Source: an uncultured Myxococcales bacterium (GTDB taxonomy: Bacteria > Myxococcota_A > Polyangia > Polyangiales > Polyangiaceae). Taken from it: a stretch of DNA of 39,885 nt. Below are positions 2,607 to 14,758 of the stretch, piece after piece. Position 1 is the stretch's first letter. The number at the start of each line of letters is the position of its first letter. The stretch is from NCBI GenBank assembly GCA_937902985.1, contig CALFNG010000315.1, positions 1-39,885 on the forward strand, in the 5' to 3' direction. Made by a program: the position numbers and the translations under genes. The notes under the pieces were generated by a model, which worked only from the letters and a program-made list of their open reading frames with translations, searched no databases and was not told where the DNA came from.

Positions 2607-3431
2607 ATGACGACAGAACACGCCCAGGACACCGTTCGCGCGGCCGTCCGCCATACTTACGCCAAGGCTGCCGAGGGACGTGCAGTCCCCGGCTGTTGCG
2701 GCCCGAACCCGAGCGCCAGCCTGCAGCTCGGCTACACGCCCGAAGACCTGGCGGCTGTACCCGAGGGCGCCAACCTCGGCCTTGGCTGCGGCAACCCCCA
2801 GGCCATCGCAGCGCTCCGGCCGGGCGAGACCGTACTCGACCTCGGCAGCGGCGGAGGTTTCGACTGCTTCCTGGCGGCCAGGCAGGTTGGGCCGACCGGT
2901 CGTATCCTGGGTGTGGACATGACTCCGGCCATGATCACCAAGGCGCGAGCCAATGCAGAGCGCATCGGCGCCGCGAACGTCGAGTTCCGGCTCGGCGAGA
3001 TTGAGCACCTTCCGGTCGCCGACGCGAGCGTCGACGTCATCCTTTCCAATTGCGTCATCAACCTGTCCCCGGACAAAGGGTCGGTCTTCCGGGAGGCCTT
3101 TCGTGTCCTTCGCGCGGGCGGACGCCTGGCGGTCTCCGACATCGTGGCCCTCGCTCCGATCCCGGCTGAACTGCGGGGGCGCCTCGAGGCGTACACCGGA
3201 TGCGTGGCCGGAGCCGCGACGATCGACGAGGTGACCGGCATGCTTCGCGAGTCGGGCTTCGGCGACGTAGTGGTCTCGCCACGGCCGGACGTGAGCGCCT
3301 GCATCGCTGAATGGATGCCCGGCACCGGCGCCGAGAAGTACGTCGCCTCGGCGACCCTCGAAGCACGCAAGCCGGGCGGAGAGCGCACCTGCTGCGGGCC
3401 CGCCTGCTGCGCGACGGAAGCGAGCCCATGA
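2607..3431 (+). CDS. arsM: Arsenite S-adenosylmethionine methyltransferase
   Basis: 274 aa. Methylates As(III) using SAM, a cytosolic route to methylated, partly volatile arsenicals. The SAM-binding fold is clear: motif I LDLGSGGGFDC (~77-87), the acidic GVDMT loop (~102-106) and the post-motif helix. Family-specific cysteines are present: C30/C31, C61 in GCGNP, C149 in SNCVINLSPDK and C199 in YTGCVAGA. The last two match the As(III)-binding pair known in ArsM enzymes (C174 and C224 of the algal protein). A Cys-pair tail (ERTCCGPACC) follows. A good ribosome site (GGAGG, 7 nt spacing) precedes the ATG. The stop overlaps the start of the next sigma gene (ATGA), so the two form an operon. The main ars operon lies about 7 kb away on the other strand. 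Confidence 0.95.
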   Translation: MTTEHAQDTVRAAVRHTYAKAAEGRAVPGCCGPNPSASLQLGYTPEDLAAVPEGANLGLGCGNPQAIAALRPGETVLDLGSGGGFDCFLAARQVGPTGRILGVDMTPAMITKARANAERIGAANVEFRLGEIEHLPVADASVDVILSNCVINLSPDKGSVFREAFRVLRAGGRLAVSDIVALAPIPAELRGRLEAYTGCVAGAATIDEVTGMLRESGFGDVVVSPRPDVSACIAEWMPGTGAEKYVASATLEARKPGGERTCCGPACCATEASP

Positions 3432-4066
3432 TCGACGCGGGCATGCGCTGCGCGTATCGCGAACTCGAGGCGCGCCTGCGGCCCTTCGTCGCGCGGCGCG
3501 TGTCCGCCACTTCCGAAGTCGACGACGTGATGCAGGACGTCTTCTTGCGGATGCAGCGCAGCCTCGCGAGCTTGCGCGACGACGAGCGCTTCGGGCCCTA
3601 GGTCTATCAGGTCGCCCGGAGCGCGATCGCCGAGCATCGGCGTGAACGGATCCGGTACCCGCTTGCGACCACGGAACCCGTCGAGGCCACAGCGGAGCCG
3701 GCTGCGGCGGAGGACGACCGCGCGGTGGAGCGCCTGGTCGCCACCTACGTGGCGCCGTTCATCGCGATGCTTCCGACTCCCTACCGCGAAGCGCTGACCC
3801 TGACGGAGCTCGAAGGCATCACCCAGAAGGAAGCCGCCGAGATGATGGGCGTGTCCTTCTCCGGGATGAAATCGCGCGTCCAGCGTGGGCGCGAAAAGCT
3901 CCGGGCCCTCCTCGAGAATTGCTGCGAGATTGCGCTCGACGCGCGCGGGCGCCTGATCGCGTGCGAGCCGCGACCGCACGGAAAACAGCCGGCCAACTGC
4001 TGCTGCGAGCCCGAGGGTCCCTCTCGCGAAGCGAAACCACGGAGCCCCGAGCGTTTCGACGTCTGA
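3428..4066 (+). pseudogene. SigZ-like ECF sigma factor with in-frame amber stop
   Basis: One continuous reading frame of 213 codons is interrupted only by TAG at 3599-3601. The N-terminal part holds sigma region 2 (VDDVMQDVFLRMQRSLASLRD). After the TAG, in the same frame, come VYQVARSAIAEHRRERI (end of region 2), then region 4 (LPTPYREALTLTELEGITQ, KEAAEMMGVSFSGMKSRVQ). A Cys-rich tail follows (NCC, ACE, NCCC). In this family the stop position is normally Trp in a (W)(V/L)YQ(V/I)AR motif, so a single TGG to TAG change explains it. The start overlaps the arsM stop. C-terminal cysteines suggest metal or metalloid sensing, as in CorE-type ECF factors of Myxococcus, by analogy only. A GTG at 3725 could restart translation of a region-4 fragment. 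A sequencing error or stop readthrough is possible. Confidence 0.8.
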
Positions 4067-4156: not shown

Positions 4157-4206
4157 CGGCGGGAGCTCCCGCCGCCCGTGGTGAATGACCCGGTTCCGTG
4201 GTCATT
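4157..4206. promoter_or_regulatory. Palindrome and hairpin upstream of the response regulator
   Basis: An 18-bp perfect palindrome lies at 4157-4174 (CGGCGGGAG and its complement). It is followed by AATGACC-N9-GGTCATT at 4184-4206. Together they fill much of the gap between the sigma pseudogene and the regulator gene. They are candidates for operator sites, possibly for autoregulation, since OmpR/PhoB regulators bind repeated half-sites. Confidence 0.45.
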
Positions 4207-4261
4207 GACGTGTGCGCGTCCTGTCACCGAATTGCCATAGAACACGATTACGTACACGAAA

Positions 4262-4945
4262 GTGGCGAACGTCCTCCTCATAGATTCCGACGAAGCGGCG
4301 ATCGCCTCACTTCTTCCCGCGCTCGTCGAAGCCGGGCACGCCGTCCGCGTCACGCGAACGGGCGCTGGAGGGCTAGTCGGCGCTCGGGCCCAGCGGCCCG
4401 ACCTGGTCGTACTCGAGGCCCTCTTGCCGGACATCTCCGGGACGGAGGTCTGCCGTTCCCTGAAGAGCGACGACGCGACAAGCGAGGCCTTTGTGATCTT
4501 CGTCAGCTCGAAGAACGCGGATGGCGACCGCGTTGCCGCGCTCGAGCTCGGAGCGGACGATTACGTGGCGAAGCCGTTCAGCGTTCGAGAGATCGTCCTT
4601 CGTGTCGATGCGGTCTTGCGCCGCCTATCGAGGGTGTCGGCAGCGCAACCCGCTGCAGGGATCTCGATCGACCGTGGCGCGCACCGCGTGCTCGTCCATG
4701 GCCGCGACGTGAACCTCACCTCGCTCGAACTCCGGCTGCTTTGCGCGCTTTTCGACGGGGGCGCGCGCGTGCAGTCGCGCGAGTCGCTCTTGCGCGACGT
4801 CTGGGGCAACCAGCGAGAGGTCACGACGCGCACCGTCGACACGCACGTGAAGCGGCTGCGCAAGAAGCTCGGGGTAGCGGCGACGTGCATCCGCAGCGTG
4901 CGCGGGGTCGGTTACGGCTTCGATGCCCCACGCCAAGAGGCCTGA
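4262..4945 (+). CDS. OmpR/PhoB-family response regulator with Glu at the phospho-site
   Basis: 227 aa from GTG. The receiver domain spans residues 1-118 and the winged-helix DNA-binding domain about 130-222 (TSLELRLLCALFDGG, TVDTHVKRLRKKLG, RSVRGVGYGF). Other receiver landmarks are normal: Ser in VSSK and Lys in VAKPFS. The phospho-acceptor is Glu52 (LVVLEALLPDISG), where canonical members have Asp. The acidic pocket is also altered (LLIDSDE). Glu can mimic phospho-Asp in some regulators, so it may be constitutively active or phosphorylation-independent. No histidine kinase lies next to it. No good ribosome site precedes the GTG, so the start is the least certain part. The following gene is convergent. 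Confidence 0.85.
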   Translation: MANVLLIDSDEAAIASLLPALVEAGHAVRVTRTGAGGLVGARAQRPDLVVLEALLPDISGTEVCRSLKSDDATSEAFVIFVSSKNADGDRVAALELGADDYVAKPFSVREIVLRVDAVLRRLSRVSAAQPAAGISIDRGAHRVLVHGRDVNLTSLELRLLCALFDGGARVQSRESLLRDVWGNQREVTTRTVDTHVKRLRKKLGVAATCIRSVRGVGYGFDAPRQEA

Positions 4946-8132: not shown

Positions 8133-10562
8133 TTACTTCGTCGCCCAGACGTTCGTCTGCTTGGCGTCGGGCCCGGTCTGGGGCGTCCGGCTGTCGTCCG
8201 CCGTCTGCTTCGCGGCGTACGAGGCAGGGATGACGAACGCGTGGTTCATCGGCCGCACGGCGTCGTAGTGGGTATCAGCGCTGGCCGCGAACTCCGGCAG
8301 GTTGAGGATGTTTTGCGCGATGAACTTCTCCGTGTATTTGGCCCGGTTCGCGTACGACGCGTCGTTCGCCGGGTCCGCGAGCATGAACATGTCCTCGAGC
8401 GTTCGCACGAACGAGAAGTGGCTGTAGGAGTCGCTGTCGACGATGCCCTTGGGCGCGGCCGCCTGGTTGGTCAGAATGCCGAAGACGCTCATCCCGTGCC
8501 CCTGGTTGCCCTGGGTGTAGTTGGCGTTCGAGTTGTCGACCGACCAGGTGCTGCCCGATTGCACGAGCGGGTTCGACGTCGCGGACTTGCTCGCCTTCCA
8601 GCCGCAGCACGAGTTGAAGCCGCTGGTCGCGTTGCCCTCGTCGAACATGAGGACGATGGCGATCTTCTCTTGCGGATTCTTCCAGAGATTGGACGCCTGG
8701 ATCTTCTTGACCAAGGCGTCGACGTAGTTGTCGCCGCGCGTGATGATCGCGCCACCGGTCGCGACGGGGACGTTGTTCGCGACGCTGCCACAATCGCTCG
8801 CGGCCGTCGGCCCCGCGCCCGCGTCCGAGCTCAAGGTCCCGTTCACTGTGATCCCGTGCATGTCGTCGCACTGATCCGGCATCACGAAGTTCAGTTCCCC
8901 GACATCGCCCGACGCCAGGTCGGTTCCGAGCTGGTCGTAGTCGTAGCCGGCCGGGATCGTGTATTTGGTCGTGTTCTTCAGTGCGCTGTCCCACTGCCCG
9001 CCCCCCAGCGTGCGGTTGCTGTACTTGAACTCGGGCGCGCTGCGAACGTTCTGGTAGGCCATTCCGGGGTGGTGCTTCGTCTTGTAGAGGCTCGCCGGCA
9101 GAGGAACAACGAGGCCGGGGTTTCCGATCGTCGCTGCGTTCCCGCCGACCGTGCCGGGCGCGTAGACGTGGTCCGGCGCCGTGACCGCCGGGTCGGCGAC
9201 GCTGTCGGTCCGGAAGTCTTGACCCGGGTTCATCGACTCGCTGTACGTGCGCCAGCTCATGCCCGATGCAGTGATGGCGTTGAAGAGGTTCTTCTTACCG
9301 ACGATGTTATGATTCGTCCCAACAGCCTGCGTGCAGGTCGCCGCGAACGGCGAGCTCGCGAGCCCGGGTTGCGTGTTGTCCGGAACCGGAGTGTCTTGCA
9401 CGGCGTTCGCGCCCATTGCATCGCAGTTCCACTGGCTGTCGTCGGCGATCCCGAAGTCGTCGCCACCGCCGAGGGCGGTGTAGTTCGGCTCGCTCGGGTT
9501 GCCCGTGGCATAGTAGCTGATCGCCTGGTTGCCCGCGGCGAGGTACGCGTTGATCTTCGGCGCGAAGGCCGAGTTGAGGATCGCCTGCGTCGACTTGTTT
9601 TCGAGCATGACGATGAAGATGTGATCGTAACGAGGGATCGCCTCGACGTTGAACGCCGCCTGCTCTGCCTGAAGGAACGTGATCGCGTGGCGCGTTTCCG
9701 TGGTCGTTGCCGTCCCCGCCGTGACCCCGGAGAGGCCCGTCAGCTCGGGGTCGCCGCCCGGCACCGCGAGCGCGTCGGGGTAGAGGTCGCCGCGATCCAG
9801 CTTGGTGATTGCGTAGGCGAAGCGACCGGTGAGGATGTTCGCTTCGCGCAGAAGCGCGCGCTGGGTCATGCCCGTCAGGGCATTGAAGTCGGAAAGCACC
9901 TGGTCCGGGCCGACCTGGACTGTCCCCGCAGTGACGCGCGTGGCCAGGTTCGGCTTCTCCGCGGCGTAACCAGTGCCGTTCGCCTCGGTCAGGCGGACCA
10001 CTTCGGTCGAGAGAGCGCTGAGGACGACGGCGCCGCTCTGCTCCGTCACTTGCTCGACCGACGCGCGAAACACGTTGCGGGAAGGATTGGTGGCGTTGCT
10101 CGCCGTGTTGGTAGCGCTCGTCCCGATGTCGGCGATGAGAGCCGCGGGCGCCGGCAGGGCCAGGCTGAACTTGCCCATGGCGTCGGTCGTGGTCTGCGTT
10201 TCGCCCGTGTCGCACTTGCCGTTTCCGTTGGCGTCGACGCAAACCGTGGCGCCCTTGTAGTACCCGGGCGCGATCGTGGGCTCGGTGGCGCTGCCCGGGA
10301 CGAACGCGACGCTCGCGACGACGCCTTTGACCGTGGTGGGCTGCGAGCCGGCATCGCCGCTGTCGCTGGCCATCATCCCGCCGTCGACGTTGCCGCTCGC
10401 GTCGGTAGGCGTCGTGCCATCGCCTTCACTCGATGGAGCGTCGGTCCCGGGGCTTCCGTCGGGACCATTGTTCGTGGCCCCGTTGTCGTCACCGCTGCAG
10501 TGCGTGAACGCTGCGATGAGGCCCAGAAGCACCGGTACGGACTTCAGTCTATTCAGATTCAT
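8133..10562 (-). CDS. Secreted phosphoesterase (phospholipase C / acid phosphatase family)
   Basis: 809 aa from the ATG at 10562, chosen because CAGGAG lies about 9 nt upstream; the longer frame adds an Arg-rich leader. It has a signal peptide with a non-canonical lipobox (AFTHC, C22) and a Ser/Asp/Gly linker. A carboxypeptidase-regulatory/SdrD-B-like module follows at ~80-150, with an Asp/Asn loop (DANGNGKCD) of calcium-binding type. The phosphoesterase domain runs from ~311 to the end and opens with the metal-site motif YDHIFIVMLENKS. GNPSEPNYTALGGGDD (substrate/metal region) and IVLMFDEG follow. The family hydrolyses phosphate mono- or diesters outside the cell. It is the first gene of the operon with peroxidase, lipoprotein and oxygenase. 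Confidence 0.88.
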   Translation of the reverse strand: MNLNRLKSVPVLLGLIAAFTHCSGDDNGATNNGPDGSPGTDAPSSEGDGTTPTDASGNVDGGMMASDSGDAGSQPTTVKGVVASVAFVPGSATEPTIAPGYYKGATVCVDANGNGKCDTGETQTTTDAMGKFSLALPAPAALIADIGTSATNTASNATNPSRNVFRASVEQVTEQSGAVVLSALSTEVVRLTEANGTGYAAEKPNLATRVTAGTVQVGPDQVLSDFNALTGMTQRALLREANILTGRFAYAITKLDRGDLYPDALAVPGGDPELTGLSGVTAGTATTTETRHAITFLQAEQAAFNVEAIPRYDHIFIVMLENKSTQAILNSAFAPKINAYLAAGNQAISYYATGNPSEPNYTALGGGDDFGIADDSQWNCDAMGANAVQDTPVPDNTQPGLASSPFAATCTQAVGTNHNIVGKKNLFNAITASGMSWRTYSESMNPGQDFRTDSVADPAVTAPDHVYAPGTVGGNAATIGNPGLVVPLPASLYKTKHHPGMAYQNVRSAPEFKYSNRTLGGGQWDSALKNTTKYTIPAGYDYDQLGTDLASGDVGELNFVMPDQCDDMHGITVNGTLSSDAGAGPTAASDCGSVANNVPVATGGAIITRGDNYVDALVKKIQASNLWKNPQEKIAIVLMFDEGNATSGFNSCCGWKASKSATSNPLVQSGSTWSVDNSNANYTQGNQGHGMSVFGILTNQAAAPKGIVDSDSYSHFSFVRTLEDMFMLADPANDASYANRAKYTEKFIAQNILNLPEFAASADTHYDAVRPMNHAFVIPASYAAKQTADDSRTPQTGPDAKQTNVWATK

Positions 10563-10662
10563 CGGGTCTCGACTCCTGCGGCTGCGCCGCGCTCTCCACG
10601 CCGCGGCGGACCAGACCACGCCGAGGTTCGCTCCAATCCACGCTCGTGTGACAAACGTGCAT

Positions 10663-10680
10663 CGCTACGCCTTCGTAGCG
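10663..10680. promoter_or_regulatory. Perfect 7-bp hairpin between arsC and the phosphoesterase gene
   Basis: CGCTACG-CCTT-CGTAGCG lies in the 162 bp between the last ars gene and the phosphoesterase start. No T-tract follows on the minus strand. It may end the ars transcript or regulate the next operon. The rest of 10563-10724 must carry that operon's promoter, but no clear boxes are visible. Confidence 0.4.
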
Positions 10681-10724: not shown

Positions 10725-11162
10725 TCACATCTTCTCGTCGACGATGATGAGGAAACGCACTCGCTGCGAGAGGCCAGCGAAGATCTCCTTGAAGGCCCGC
10801 GTGCGTGCCGTCGCGTCGAGGATCTGCGCAGGATCGGGGAAGGTCCAGTGCATCATCTCCGCGAAGGCGAACGTCGGGCACCGTTCGCGGGCGCGGTCGC
10901 AGAGCGTGATGACGTAGTCGAACGAAGCGCCGGCGAAGGTGGCCACGTCTTTCGGCCTTAGGCCGTCGACCGGCACGTTGTTGCCTCGGAGCGTCTCGAT
11001 GGCGTCGGGATGCACGTGCTCGCGGGGTATCGTGCCCGCGCTGACGACTTCGAACCGATCGGCGGCGATGTGACGCAAGAGGGCCTCGGCCATCTGGCTA
11101 CGCGCAGAGTTGCCGCTGCACAAGAACAGCACCCGTTTCAAACGCTTTTCCGAGGTGCTCAT
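10725..11162 (-). CDS. arsC: Arsenate reductase, thioredoxin-coupled type
   Basis: 145 aa with the low-molecular-weight phosphatase fold. The P-loop is C15-SGNSA-R21. The resolving pair C89-x6-C96 (TLCDRARERC) has the same spacing as C82/C89 of staphylococcal pI258 ArsC. The acid loop is HWTFPDPA. The enzyme reduces As(V) to As(III) by a Cys relay recycled by thioredoxin. A strong ribosome site (AGGAG, 7 nt) precedes the ATG. It is the last gene of the ars operon, 31 bp after a second, different arsC. Having both types gives two reductant routes. Confidence 0.92.
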   Translation of the reverse strand: MSTSEKRLKRVLFLCSGNSARSQMAEALLRHIAADRFEVVSAGTIPREHVHPDAIETLRGNNVPVDGLRPKDVATFAGASFDYVITLCDRARERCPTFAFAEMMHWTFPDPAQILDATARTRAFKEIFAGLSQRVRFLIIVDEKM

Positions 11163-11193
11163 GTCAGGCTCCTGGCGCGGCGAGAATCGAAGC

Positions 11194-11598
11194 TCAGGCC
11201 TTTGACCAACCCTCGTCGCGAAGGAGCTCGCTGACGCGCCCGCGCACCTCGTCGCGAATCTCGCGCACTCGCTCGATCGGCTTGCCCTTGGGATCGTCGA
11301 GGGGCCAGTCCATGCGCCGGAGGCCCGGGACGACCGGGCACGCTTCTCCGCATCCCATCGTGATTAGAATGGATGCGGTCGCCGCCAGTTCGTCGGTCAG
11401 CTTCCGCGGTGTGATCCCTTCGACCTCGACCCCGACTTCGCGCATCGCGTTGACGACCTCGGGGTGGACGCGCGTCCCGGGGTCAGTACCGGCGGAAATC
11501 GCGCTCGCCTTGTCGCGATCGGCGAGGGCGTTGAACCAAGCCGCGGCCATCTGGGAACGACCGGCGTTGTGAATGCACGCGAATAGAACCTTCTTCAT
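11194..11598 (-). CDS. arsC: Arsenate reductase of the MGCGxxCP subfamily
   Basis: 134 aa. P-loop C8-IHNAG-R14, then TMGCGEACP (C83, C87) and WPLDDPKGKP. The C-x3-C pair and this flanking sequence match the subfamily that includes actinobacterial arsenate-mycothiol transferases and many ArsC partners of AqpS, as distinct from the pI258 type next door. It reduces arsenate in the cytosol; the electron donor in this organism is unknown. A good ribosome site (GAGGAGGAG) precedes the ATG. It sits directly after a decayed FAD oxidoreductase and before the second arsC. Confidence 0.9.
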   Translation of the reverse strand: MKKVLFACIHNAGRSQMAAAWFNALADRDKASAISAGTDPGTRVHPEVVNAMREVGVEVEGITPRKLTDELAATASILITMGCGEACPVVPGLRRMDWPLDDPKGKPIERVREIRDEVRGRVSELLRDEGWSKA

Positions 11599-11639
11599 GA
11601 CTCTCCTCCTCAGAGGCTGCGCCTGCGCGCACCCACTCC

Positions 11640-11843
11640 ATGCAGCTCGTTTGAACCGGATCCCATGGGCTGCTGAGGGGCGGCGTGTAGCTGAGGTCGA
11701 GGTGTTCGACGGCGTCGACCGTCATGCCATGGAAAGCGGTCGGCGACGACGAGACGGACGCCCCAGCTCGCGTCCACCTCGCGCGCGCGCAGGGCGGCGC
11801 TGATGCCCGCGTCACTGCCTCCAATGATGAGCAACGTCTTCAT
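11640..11843 (-). pseudogene. FAD-dependent oxidoreductase reduced to its two ends
   Basis: The ATG at 11843 opens a normal Rossmann FAD-binding start, MKTLLIIGGSDAGISAALRA, continuing to VVADRFP. Near 11730-11737 the frame shifts and the sequence becomes FHGMTVDAVEHLDLSYTPP then LSSPWDPVQ. That is the C-terminal signature of NADH oxidase/CoA-disulfide-reductase-type flavoproteins, which are usually about 450-550 aa. About 400 codons between the ends are missing. The C-terminal frame has no stop of its own before the arsC start. Intact versions of this gene are common between aqpS and arsC in other bacteria, so this looks like a recent internal deletion in a working operon. Its end point is approximate. 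Confidence 0.8.
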
Positions 11844-11863
11844 GGGTTCCCACTTTGCGAGGG

Positions 11864-12604
11864 CTACGTGGGCTCTTCGCCGTTGCCTGGGTCGCTCGCG
11901 GCGGGGTCGCGGTCCATCACCCGAGACGCAAAGTCTGGCAGCGTCGGGACGAGCCATCGAAAGAGCCCCGTCGCGGCGGCCGCGCCGAGGAGCTGCGCGA
12001 CGATGAAGCCCGGCGCATCGATGGGGCGGATCCCGGCAAACGTGTCGCTCGCCGCCCGAGCCAGCGTCACGGCGGGGTTGGCGAACGACGTCGACGACGT
12101 GAACCAGTACGCCGCCGTGATGTACGCGCCGACGGCAAAAGGAACGACCGTAGGCCTCCGGCGAACGCATCCCCAGATCACGGCGAGGAGCCCGAACGTG
12201 GCGACGAACTCGCTGACGAGCTGCGACACGCCTGACCGCTCGTGCTGCGAGGCGAAAAAAAGCGCGGGCTCTTTGAACATGATGTGCGCGACCGCCACGC
12301 CCGCGAAGGCCCCGGTGAGCTGCGCCCCGAAGTACACCGGGACGTCCCGCCACGCGAGCCCACCCTGGCTCGCGTCGGCGAGCGTCACGGCCGGGTTGAA
12401 ATGGGCGCCGCTCACCGGCCCGAACGTCAGAATCAACGCGACGAGACCCGCGCCGGTCGCGACCGTGTTCGCGAGCAGCGCAATGGCCACGTTTCCGCCG
12501 GCGAGCCGCTCGCCCATGATGCCGGAACCGACCACGGTCGCCAGCAAGAGAGCGGTACCGACGAATTCGGCGGCCGCTCGTCTCGGGAGCGTCGGCGTCG
12601 TCAT
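11864..12604 (-). CDS. aqpS: MIP-family aquaporin/aquaglyceroporin, arsenic-linked
   Basis: 246 aa with about six membrane segments and both pore motifs, HFNPAVTL and FANPAVTLARA. The last segment is followed by a charged tail (MDRDPAASD). The ATG overlaps the arsA stop (ATGA), with GGAGG about 8 nt upstream inside arsA, indicating coupled translation. Arsenic-linked MIP channels such as Sinorhizobium AqpS let As(OH)3 made by ArsC flow out down its gradient. Placement within arsRDA-aqpS-arsC makes that role likely here. The frame is open upstream through arsA but that is a shadow. The symbol is assigned by context and family resemblance. Confidence 0.9.
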   Translation of the reverse strand: MTTPTLPRRAAAEFVGTALLLATVVGSGIMGERLAGGNVAIALLANTVATGAGLVALILTFGPVSGAHFNPAVTLADASQGGLAWRDVPVYFGAQLTGAFAGVAVAHIMFKEPALFFASQHERSGVSQLVSEFVATFGLLAVIWGCVRRRPTVVPFAVGAYITAAYWFTSSTSFANPAVTLARAASDTFAGIRPIDAPGFIVAQLLGAAAATGLFRWLVPTLPDFASRVMDRDPAASDPGNGEEPT

Positions 12605-14355
12605 GGCCGTGCCTCCATCGCTGAGGCCGCGAGCCGCACGCCTGGTTGCCCGAGTCCCGCGTTCCAGGGCACGAGGACGACCCGCGAGCTCAGCTCGGAC
12701 ACTTCGCGGATGTATCGGATCTCGTTCGCGCGACGTTGACGCAAGACGGGATCCGAAACGGAAAGGGGCGAAAAGCTCTGATTGATGACCCAGGCGAAGG
12801 GTCGAATCTCGGCGCGCTCGAGATCGCGTTGCAGGGCCGCCGCTTCGTGAACGGGCGTGGCTTCCGGCAGCGTGACCAGCAGGATCCGCGTGAACTCCGG
12901 GTCCCGGAGACGTGGCAAGAGACGCCGCACCTCTTCGGGCGCGTTGCCCGCGGTACGCAGGACTTCGCGGTGGTACGCCTCCGCCGCGTCGAGCAGGAGG
13001 AGCGTATGCCCGGTGGGAGCGGTGTCGATGATGACGAAGCCGTGCTCCGCTTCGTCCACGACGCGCGCGAATGCGCGAAAGACCGCCACTTCTTCGGTGC
13101 AAGGCGATCGGAGGTCCTCCTCGAGGAGCGCGCGGCCGGCCTCGTCGAGGGACGCGCCAGCGGTGCGCATGGCATCTTGTACGTAGGCCCGCGTCTCGGC
13201 CTCCGGGTCGATCCGGCTCACGCGAAGGTTGGGCAACGGATCGCCAAGGGCCTCGGCGACGTGAGCGGCCGGGTCGGTCGTCGTGAGGGTCACGGCATGC
13301 CCGCGGTTCGCGAGGGCCACGGCGATCCCAACGGCGACGCTCGTCTTGCCCACGCCCCCTTTGCCCATGGTCATGATGACGCCATGGCCGGCGGCCGTGA
13401 GCTCCGGAAGCAGTGCGGCCAGGTTCGGCAGCGAGGGAACCGTGACGTCTTCGACGATCGCTCCGCGGGGTCTGTCTCCACCAAACAGCGCCCGAAGGGC
13501 CTGAAGGCCCACGAGCCCGAACGGTAAGAGAACGAGCTCGGTCCTCGAAAGGGATGCGAGCCCTGTGGGCATCGCGGCGAGAGCCTTGCGGCCGCGCTCG
13601 TCGAGGGCGATCGCAAACGGGTCACGAGGATCGGATGCTTTGAACAGGCCGTTCAGGACGAGCTCTTGTCGACGGACGCCGAGGGACGCGAGCTCGGCTC
13701 GCGTGCGCTCGGCCTCTCGAAGGGCAGACCCCTCCGCGCGGCTCACGAGCACCAGCGCCGTGCGATCGGCGTCCACGAGCGCTCGTCGCGACGCGTCGTA
13801 GATCGCCTGCTGGGACTTGAGGCCGGCGAGAGGTCCGAGGCACGACGTGCCCCCCGCGTTGGCCTCCAAGAAGTGCGTCCACGCTGCGGGCAACTCGAGG
13901 AGCCGCAGCGTGTGGCCCGTTGGCGCCGTGTCGAAGACGACGTGGTCGAAGTCGGCCGTCACCGCGGCATCCCCGAGGAGCTTCGAAAACTCGTCGAACG
14001 CGGCGATCTCGACGGTGCACGCTCCGGAGAGTTGCTCCTCGATGCTTCGAACCGCGGCGTCGGGCAGCACGCCGCGGTAAGGGCCGACGAGACGCTCGCG
14101 GTACGCCCGCGCCGCGGCCTCCGGGTCGATGTTCATGGCGAAGAGACCCGCCGCGCCGTCGACCGGCGTCGGCGCCAAGCTCAACGCGGTCCCGAGGACC
14201 TCGTCGAGGTTGGAGGCCGGGTCGGTGCTGACGAGCAGCACGCGCCGACCGCGCTCGGCAAGGGCAAGGGCGGTCGCGCAGGCGACGGACGTCTTTCCGA
14301 CGCCCCCCTTGCCGGTGAAAAAGAGGTGACGCGGAGCGCGATCGACGAGGTTCAC
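12601..14355 (-). CDS. arsA: Arsenical pump-driving ATPase ArsA
   Basis: 584 aa from a GTG (E. coli ArsA is 583). Two homologous halves each have a deviant Walker A GKGGVGKTS (15-23 and 331-339) and a signal-transduction motif DTAPTGHTLxLL (142-153 and 444-455). The metalloid-binding cysteines are all present: C113 (SGACTVEIAAF), C172 (TSCLGPL) and C419 (RSPCTEEVAVF), matching C113/C172/C422. Longer upstream frames overlap arsD and give an Arg-rich leader, so GTG 14355 is preferred. The start is 7 bp after arsD. ArsA normally binds the membrane carrier ArsB (or Acr3) and energises As(III) export; neither gene is in this window. Confidence 0.95.
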   Translation of the reverse strand: MNLVDRAPRHLFFTGKGGVGKTSVACATALALAERGRRVLLVSTDPASNLDEVLGTALSLAPTPVDGAAGLFAMNIDPEAAARAYRERLVGPYRGVLPDAAVRSIEEQLSGACTVEIAAFDEFSKLLGDAAVTADFDHVVFDTAPTGHTLRLLELPAAWTHFLEANAGGTSCLGPLAGLKSQQAIYDASRRALVDADRTALVLVSRAEGSALREAERTRAELASLGVRRQELVLNGLFKASDPRDPFAIALDERGRKALAAMPTGLASLSRTELVLLPFGLVGLQALRALFGGDRPRGAIVEDVTVPSLPNLAALLPELTAAGHGVIMTMGKGGVGKTSVAVGIAVALANRGHAVTLTTTDPAAHVAEALGDPLPNLRVSRIDPEAETRAYVQDAMRTAGASLDEAGRALLEEDLRSPCTEEVAVFRAFARVVDEAEHGFVIIDTAPTGHTLLLLDAAEAYHREVLRTAGNAPEEVRRLLPRLRDPEFTRILLVTLPEATPVHEAAALQRDLERAEIRPFAWVINQSFSPLSVSDPVLRQRRANEIRYIREVSELSSRVVLVPWNAGLGQPGVRLAASAMEARP

Positions 14356-14362
14356 GAGCCGC

Positions 14363-14758
14363 TCAGCAGCAGCCCGAGCCGCTCTTGCTCGCGGTCTTGG
14401 TGCTCGGACCGCAACACCCAGCCGCGGCCGCTGGCGCCGCTTCGAGCTTGCGAACGAGCACCCCGGCCAACGCCGCCAGCGTCTCACGAGACGGATACGC
14501 ACCCTCGACGGCAATCCGTTCATCGACCATCACGAGAGGCAGGCAATCGTTGCCCTTCGCCGTGAGCGCGTCCTTCACCGCCGAGGTGCCGGCAAACGCG
14601 CCCGGCTGCTGCGAAAGGTTGTATCGCTCGACCTGAATGCCCTGCCTCTTGAGCCAGTCGAGGTCGGCGGTGAAGCGGGCGAGCTCGGGATCGACGGAGG
14701 GACCGCAGACGCCGGTGGAGCAGCACATGGGCGGATCGAAGACGCGAACGGTGGGCAT
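14363..14758 (-). CDS. arsD: Arsenic metallochaperone ArsD
   Basis: 131 aa. The N-terminal As(III) site C12-C13-C18 (PPMCCSTGVCGPS) is exactly placed as in E. coli ArsD. The thioredoxin-like core follows (ELARFTADLDWLKRQGI, NDCLPLVMVD). Two further Cys pairs near the C-terminus (GCCGPS and a terminal GCC) are also seen in the R773 protein. It hands As(III) to ArsA and can act as a weak second repressor. It lies between arsR and arsA with short gaps. The Shine-Dalgarno is weak (GAAAGAAAG). Confidence 0.95.
   Translation of the reverse strand: MPTVRVFDPPMCCSTGVCGPSVDPELARFTADLDWLKRQGIQVERYNLSQQPGAFAGTSAVKDALTAKGNDCLPLVMVDERIAVEGAYPSRETLAALAGVLVRKLEAAPAAAAGCCGPSTKTASKSGSGCC

Follow-up and report, generated by a model that had tools for sequence, protein, structure and literature searches.

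The question raised by this locus is how a PhoB-type response regulator could work once its usual phosphate-accepting residue has been replaced. The gene lies in the DNA of an uncultured Myxococcales bacterium, of which a whole stretch of 39,885 nucleotides was analyzed (the window), and its features are collected in Table 1. The original prediction described a regulator with Glu in place of the phospho-accepting Asp, which would be constitutively active or phosphorylation-independent.

Table 1. Features of the regulator gene and its upstream region, in window coordinates.
Feature	Position	Strand	Basis
PhoB-type response regulator with pseudo-receiver, 227 aa, GTG start	4262..4945	+	intact ORF, AlphaFold2 model
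Receiver domain, residues 4-115	4271..4606	+	Pfam PF00072 (Response_reg)
Ser9 codon, second acidic pocket residue	4286..4288	+	D in 178/180 relatives with a residue there
Glu52 codon GAG, phospho-accepting Asp position	4415..4417	+	D in 185/187 relatives with a residue there
Ser82 codon, Thr/Ser switch residue, kept	4505..4507	+	T/S in 186/187 relatives with a residue there
Lys104 codon, pocket lysine, kept	4571..4573	+	K in 187/187 relatives with a residue there
Winged-helix DNA-binding domain, residues 147-219	4700..4918	+	Pfam PF00486 (Trans_reg_C)
Inverted repeat GTGAATGACC-N9-GGTCATTGAC, possible second operator	4181..4209	.	sequence; core once in own genome
Candidate Pho box CTGTCAC-CGAA-TTGCCAT, 11-nt direct repeat, 41 nt 5' of start codon	4221..4238	+	best window match, both strands

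The replacement of the phospho-accepting Asp was confirmed by alignment with 188 relatives (window gene excluded), of which 185 have Asp at position 52, two have Glu and one has a gap. The alteration of the acidic pocket also held, as position 9 in the same relatives is Asp in 178, Ser in one, Thr in one and a gap in eight. Aligned in this way, the pocket consists of D8-S9 at the acidic pair, E52, S82, Y101 and K104, the Ser/Lys switch residues being intact as proposed and the Tyr retained as well. Altogether 22 positions that are more than 80% conserved in 99 canonical relatives differ in this protein, and those around the pocket include 9, 52, 53, 54, 83, 86, 87 and 93. Since the nearby conserved positions 53, 54, 83, 86, 87 and 93 have changed too, Glu52 is not a single odd base or an isolated base error; judging from the alignment, it belongs to a rebuilt pocket. 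The AlphaFold2 model (mean pLDDT 90, pTM 0.60) has a full (beta-alpha)5 receiver followed by a winged helix and places Glu52 where strand 3 ends, and the modeled receiver superposes on BeF3-activated PhoB (1ZES) with 1.2 A over 119 columns, a likeness from which an active state cannot be read.

A Pfam receiver (PF00072, 68.8 bits for a cut-off of 30.2) with a residue other than Asp at the phospho-accepting position is an aspartate-less receiver (ALR) or pseudo-receiver, and the protein looks like one more member of this already known class. Its architecture, a receiver plus a Trans_reg_C winged helix found by Pfam, in the predicted fold and by fold search, is that of the OmpR/PhoB family. A 2015 count quoted in PMC12548384 put ALRs at 4% of receivers. 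Glu is their commonest substitution (26%; PMC4395418), and apart from the Asp position it is the second residue of the DD pair that is changed most frequently (PMC12548384). CmrT of Clostridioides difficile, an OmpR-family ALR, has almost the same design, with D-x-D in place of DD (DGD there, DSD here) and E53, T80 and K102 corresponding to E52, S82 and K104; hydrogen bonds among these CmrT residues are described as mimicking the active receiver, and the change E53A alone had little effect (PMC12548384). The Glu change alone did not abolish activity in either ChxR or CmrT (PMC4395418, PMC12548384). In its authors' model, the cmrT gene is raised by the phosphorylatable partner CmrR (PMC12548384), which is close to the amount-controlled logic that we propose below. 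However, the cmrT gene shares an operon with those of CmrR and the CmrS kinase, whereas our regulator has neither kinase nor partner in the window and belongs to the PhoB family. ChxR of Chlamydia trachomatis is likewise an OmpR/PhoB-family protein with Glu for Asp and a phosphorylation-free function (PMC3960148, PMC4395418), but part of the secondary structure of its pocket region is missing (PMC4395418), while our model has the full fold. Although it is a NarL-family regulator, AtvR of Pseudomonas aeruginosa resembles our protein in the change of Asp to Glu, the loss of one DD residue and the conservation of the remaining pocket (PMC12548384). In one proteome AtvR became more abundant when phosphate was limiting (PMC9769906), as we predict for our protein. 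The canonical PhoB relatives of the order and the orphan PhoP4 of Myxococcus xanthus (PMC4415409) are similar in being PhoB-type and involved in the phosphate response, but Asp is kept in all 99 canonical relatives compared; PhoP4 is likened here by its description. Among the open-access papers listed, none named a Glu-type PhoB paralogue in Myxococcota. A 2025 review calls it a mystery how pseudo-receivers of bacteria are turned on and off (PMC12632262).

The double loss (E52 and S9), together with the precedents of CmrT and ChxR, gives good support to the predicted phosphorylation independence. As the phosphate-receiving residue has been replaced by a look-alike Glu, the regulator probably works without the usual kinase, and putative constitutive activity is plausible. 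The surroundings also bore out the original prediction that no kinase lies nearby: within the window, none of 30 ORFs scanned with Pfam is a histidine kinase and no six-frame ORF of at least 80 aa has kinase motifs. Pst proteins, PhoU and a phosphate porin were likewise not recognized among the window ORFs.

Sequence comparison places the protein with the PhoB phosphate regulators of its order, as a diverged paralogue. Its best NCBIfam match is PhoB (TIGR02154), with 189.4 bits that fall below the cut-off of 296.2, as do the 219–252 bits of four canonical relatives; of the two hallmarks of the PhoB equivalog, the phosphorylatable Asp is Glu52 here and the nearby PhoR partner has no counterpart in the window. 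Matches were present in all 58 genomes searched (its own and 57 relatives). The best non-self identity among the matches listed for 108 family genomes was 56%, and nothing closer than 48% was kept among the 80 loci of a contig scan that may have left out own-genome records. No orthologue was found in the 108 family genomes, the contig scan or a search of the order. Finding Asp in orthologues had been proposed as a refutation, which does not strictly apply in this case, because no orthologue was found and the relatives that have Asp are PhoB paralogues of the canonical kind, none of those listed being more than 56% identical. The family member that groups with the window protein, with weak support (see below), also has Glu.

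The canonical relatives adjoin PhoR-type kinases, Pst transport genes, PhoU and genes of the phosphate-selective porin or TonB type (partly named by eye, with Pfam domains assigned for ten neighbors), and a kinase-like ORF was present in 15 of the 22 long loci around canonical genes (L258, L268–L288; some of them short contigs). The window's own genome has three more close family members, all with Asp: one on contig C280 beside a HisKA/HATPase protein, one on C125 beside PhoU and PstS/PstC-type proteins, and one on C338. Two canonical PhoB-type regulators lie close together on one contig in four genomes (G034, G023, G015 and G067; loci L278, L282, L275 and L258). As a separate observation, the translations at the start of locus L265 (G000:C280) and at the end of L266 (G000:C338) resemble what we take to be well-known sequencing-adapter strings, and the window's own assembly may hold adapter contamination.

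A candidate Pho box lies upstream of the gene. Instead of the Escherichia coli Pho box we used a motif learned from the relatives by unsupervised search upstream of 82 canonical genes, a set without near-copies, the window and two degenerate relatives described below, and also without loci L100–L179, genes scoring below 160 bits and upstream regions shorter than 120 nt. The motif was CGTCAC-N5-CGTCACA, an 11-nt direct repeat, which is how PHO boxes have been described (PMC4415409). The best score in the window on both strands, 14.5 bits, was found at position 4221 (the next best was 11.4), and by this motif match the gene is a predicted member of the Pho regulon. This score is equaled or exceeded by 62 of the 82 training genes and by 17 of 10,000 random 220-nt stretches (one strand), although the second half-site, TTGCCAT, is weak. 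Since 14 of 40 random 40-kb sequences contain some site of at least 14.4 bits, the argument rests on the position of the site and not on its being the best of the window. The spacing to the start codon is usual for canonical phoB genes: with a first version of the motif, derived from 101 upstream regions that included near-copies and the two degenerate relatives, 75 of the 101 reached 14.4 bits, at a median distance of 51 nt and with a quarter within 41 nt. That first motif also gave a partial match of 9.85 bits at 10643–10664 (minus strand), 5' of a PF04185 phosphoesterase gene (8133–10619), which was discarded as it fell outside the five best sites listed with the second motif.

The original prediction had placed the binding site in palindromes farther upstream. 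These do exist, a perfect one at 4158–4173 and another at 4181–4190/4200–4209 with 9 of 10 positions complementary (pairing by eye). Their role as the regulator's operator was unsupported, and the Pho-box direct repeat is the better candidate: the core of the inverted repeat, found once in the own genome and in 5 of the 57 relatives, does not represent an operator common to the family. As for the perfect GC palindrome at 4158, it could form the terminator stem of the upstream gene.

The reading that we favor, with somewhat better than even confidence, is that of a phosphorylation-independent PhoB paralogue whose amount, and not its phosphorylation, would be set by phosphate starvation via the Pho box. 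Starvation would lead to phosphorylation of canonical PhoB, encoded by the Asp-bearing copies elsewhere in the genome, and phosphorylated PhoB would switch on the regulator gene through its Pho box. The product would then fold as an active-like dimer, held by D8, E52, S82 and K104 with no need of phosphate or Mg2+, and would bind Pho-box-like direct repeats, probably its own included, to activate rather than repress. As the active-like dimer would form without phosphate, the output of the regulator would follow the amount of protein made. If this were true, these bacteria would carry out part of their phosphate response independently of PhoR. The replacement of phosphorylation by amount is directly testable here, because a Glu-type pseudo-receiver sits among 99 compared canonical relatives with a known kind of operator.

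The DNA-binding domain had been predicted to be intact, which is nearly so: the recognition-helix residues are kept, and R190, H195, R198, R200 and R214, each 99/99 in the canonical relatives, are present. However, three others replace residues conserved in 86–100% of these proteins, namely C209 (Tyr, fraction 0.86), S212 (Thr in 99/99) and G219 (Arg, fraction 1.0). Thus, binding to Pho-box-like sites is predicted as likely but perhaps altered, and these wing residues may change the affinity for DNA. They also bear on a different outcome, in which the paralogue made during starvation would occupy Pho boxes or form mixed dimers with canonical PhoB and, being a poor activator, would damp the response. 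The Pho box 5' of the gene suits such a brake, the wing changes could weaken activation, and mixed dimers are possible since the residues of the alpha4-beta5-alpha5 face (R90, E95, D100, K104, E110 and R114) are kept. Against it, W181, G182 and V187, which presumably correspond to the loop by which E. coli PhoB contacts sigma, are kept as well, and we consider a damping role unlikely.

Two other degenerate family members were found, and both lie in Pho loci of genomes from the same taxonomic order. The one in genome G032 has Glu at position 52 and DDG at the acidic pair; it shares its locus with a canonical PhoB-PhoR pair and Pst-type genes, is divergent from a porin-like gene without Pfam match and has a Pho box of 16.5 bits 44 nt upstream. 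The one in G049 has lost the DD pair and kept Asp52; it is located directly 5' of a Porin_O_P gene, which is followed by canonical PhoB, PhoR, a PstB-like protein (by eye) and PhoU, and its Pho box scores 17.8 bits at 40 nt (start taken as the GTG at 5463 of L264). Both proteins keep the family residue at positions 209, 212 and 219. The SH-aLRT values for window plus G032 and for all three together were 84 and 91 in a first tree and 60 and 90 in a second one, built without most of L100–L179, distant own-genome paralogues and three distant loci; a relative with a gap over the receiver (L117) was dropped from the trees. When near-copies and the pocket columns were removed, the values (bootstrap/SH-aLRT) were 76/28 and 75/76. 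The three proteins group weakly and on long branches, and a single clade of degenerate regulators, unstarred in the trees at these last values, is at most putative. A profile of the three detected no further clear degenerate member among the matches listed for 183 genomes of the order, a search that could have missed one among the lowest-scoring matches outside the list or among the listed ones, most of them unread at position 52. A regulator of the verrucomicrobial Chthoniobacter flavus (L103, 5935–6660) has D-S-D and Glu as well, perhaps by convergence. It has a long branch and lies near a porin-like gene on the opposite strand.

The accumulation of changes could also mean that the gene is a functionless phoB duplicate shedding its conserved residues. 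The losses at 22 conserved positions affect both domains, no orthologue was found and the gene just upstream contains a stop codon. However, the ORF is intact and has kept a coding pattern (GC of 0.74/0.48/0.82 by codon position), S82, K104, Y101 and the recognition helix have been conserved, and the Pho box stands at its usual spacing, all of which makes decay, in our opinion, quite improbable.

The upstream gene with the stop codon encodes an ECF sigma factor (3428–4066, plus strand) and follows an arsM gene (2607–3431; NCBIfam arsenite methyltransferase, 337 bits for a cut-off of 263). Its in-frame TAG (3599–3601) occupies a position that is Trp in 19 of 20 related genes and Phe in one (loci of one gene counted once), and it represents a broken gene or an assembly error. 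Downstream there are two LMW-PTP-type (arsenate reductase-like) genes (10725–11598, minus strand) and an ArsA ATPase gene (12601–14523, minus strand). The regulator might then control these surrounding arsenic genes, arsenate being the phosphate analogue that would link them, and the arsM score and the downstream genes speak for it. We give this very little probability, as the motif 5' of the gene is a Pho box and, although the arsM-sigma pair recurs in relatives, none of nine such loci examined together with their flanks, which are very short in one case, has a relative of the regulator above the score cut-off. From these loci the neighborhood of the regulator looks local. The LMW-PTP-type and ArsA genes (10725–14523) are some kilobases from arsM, the window thus holding scattered arsenic genes.
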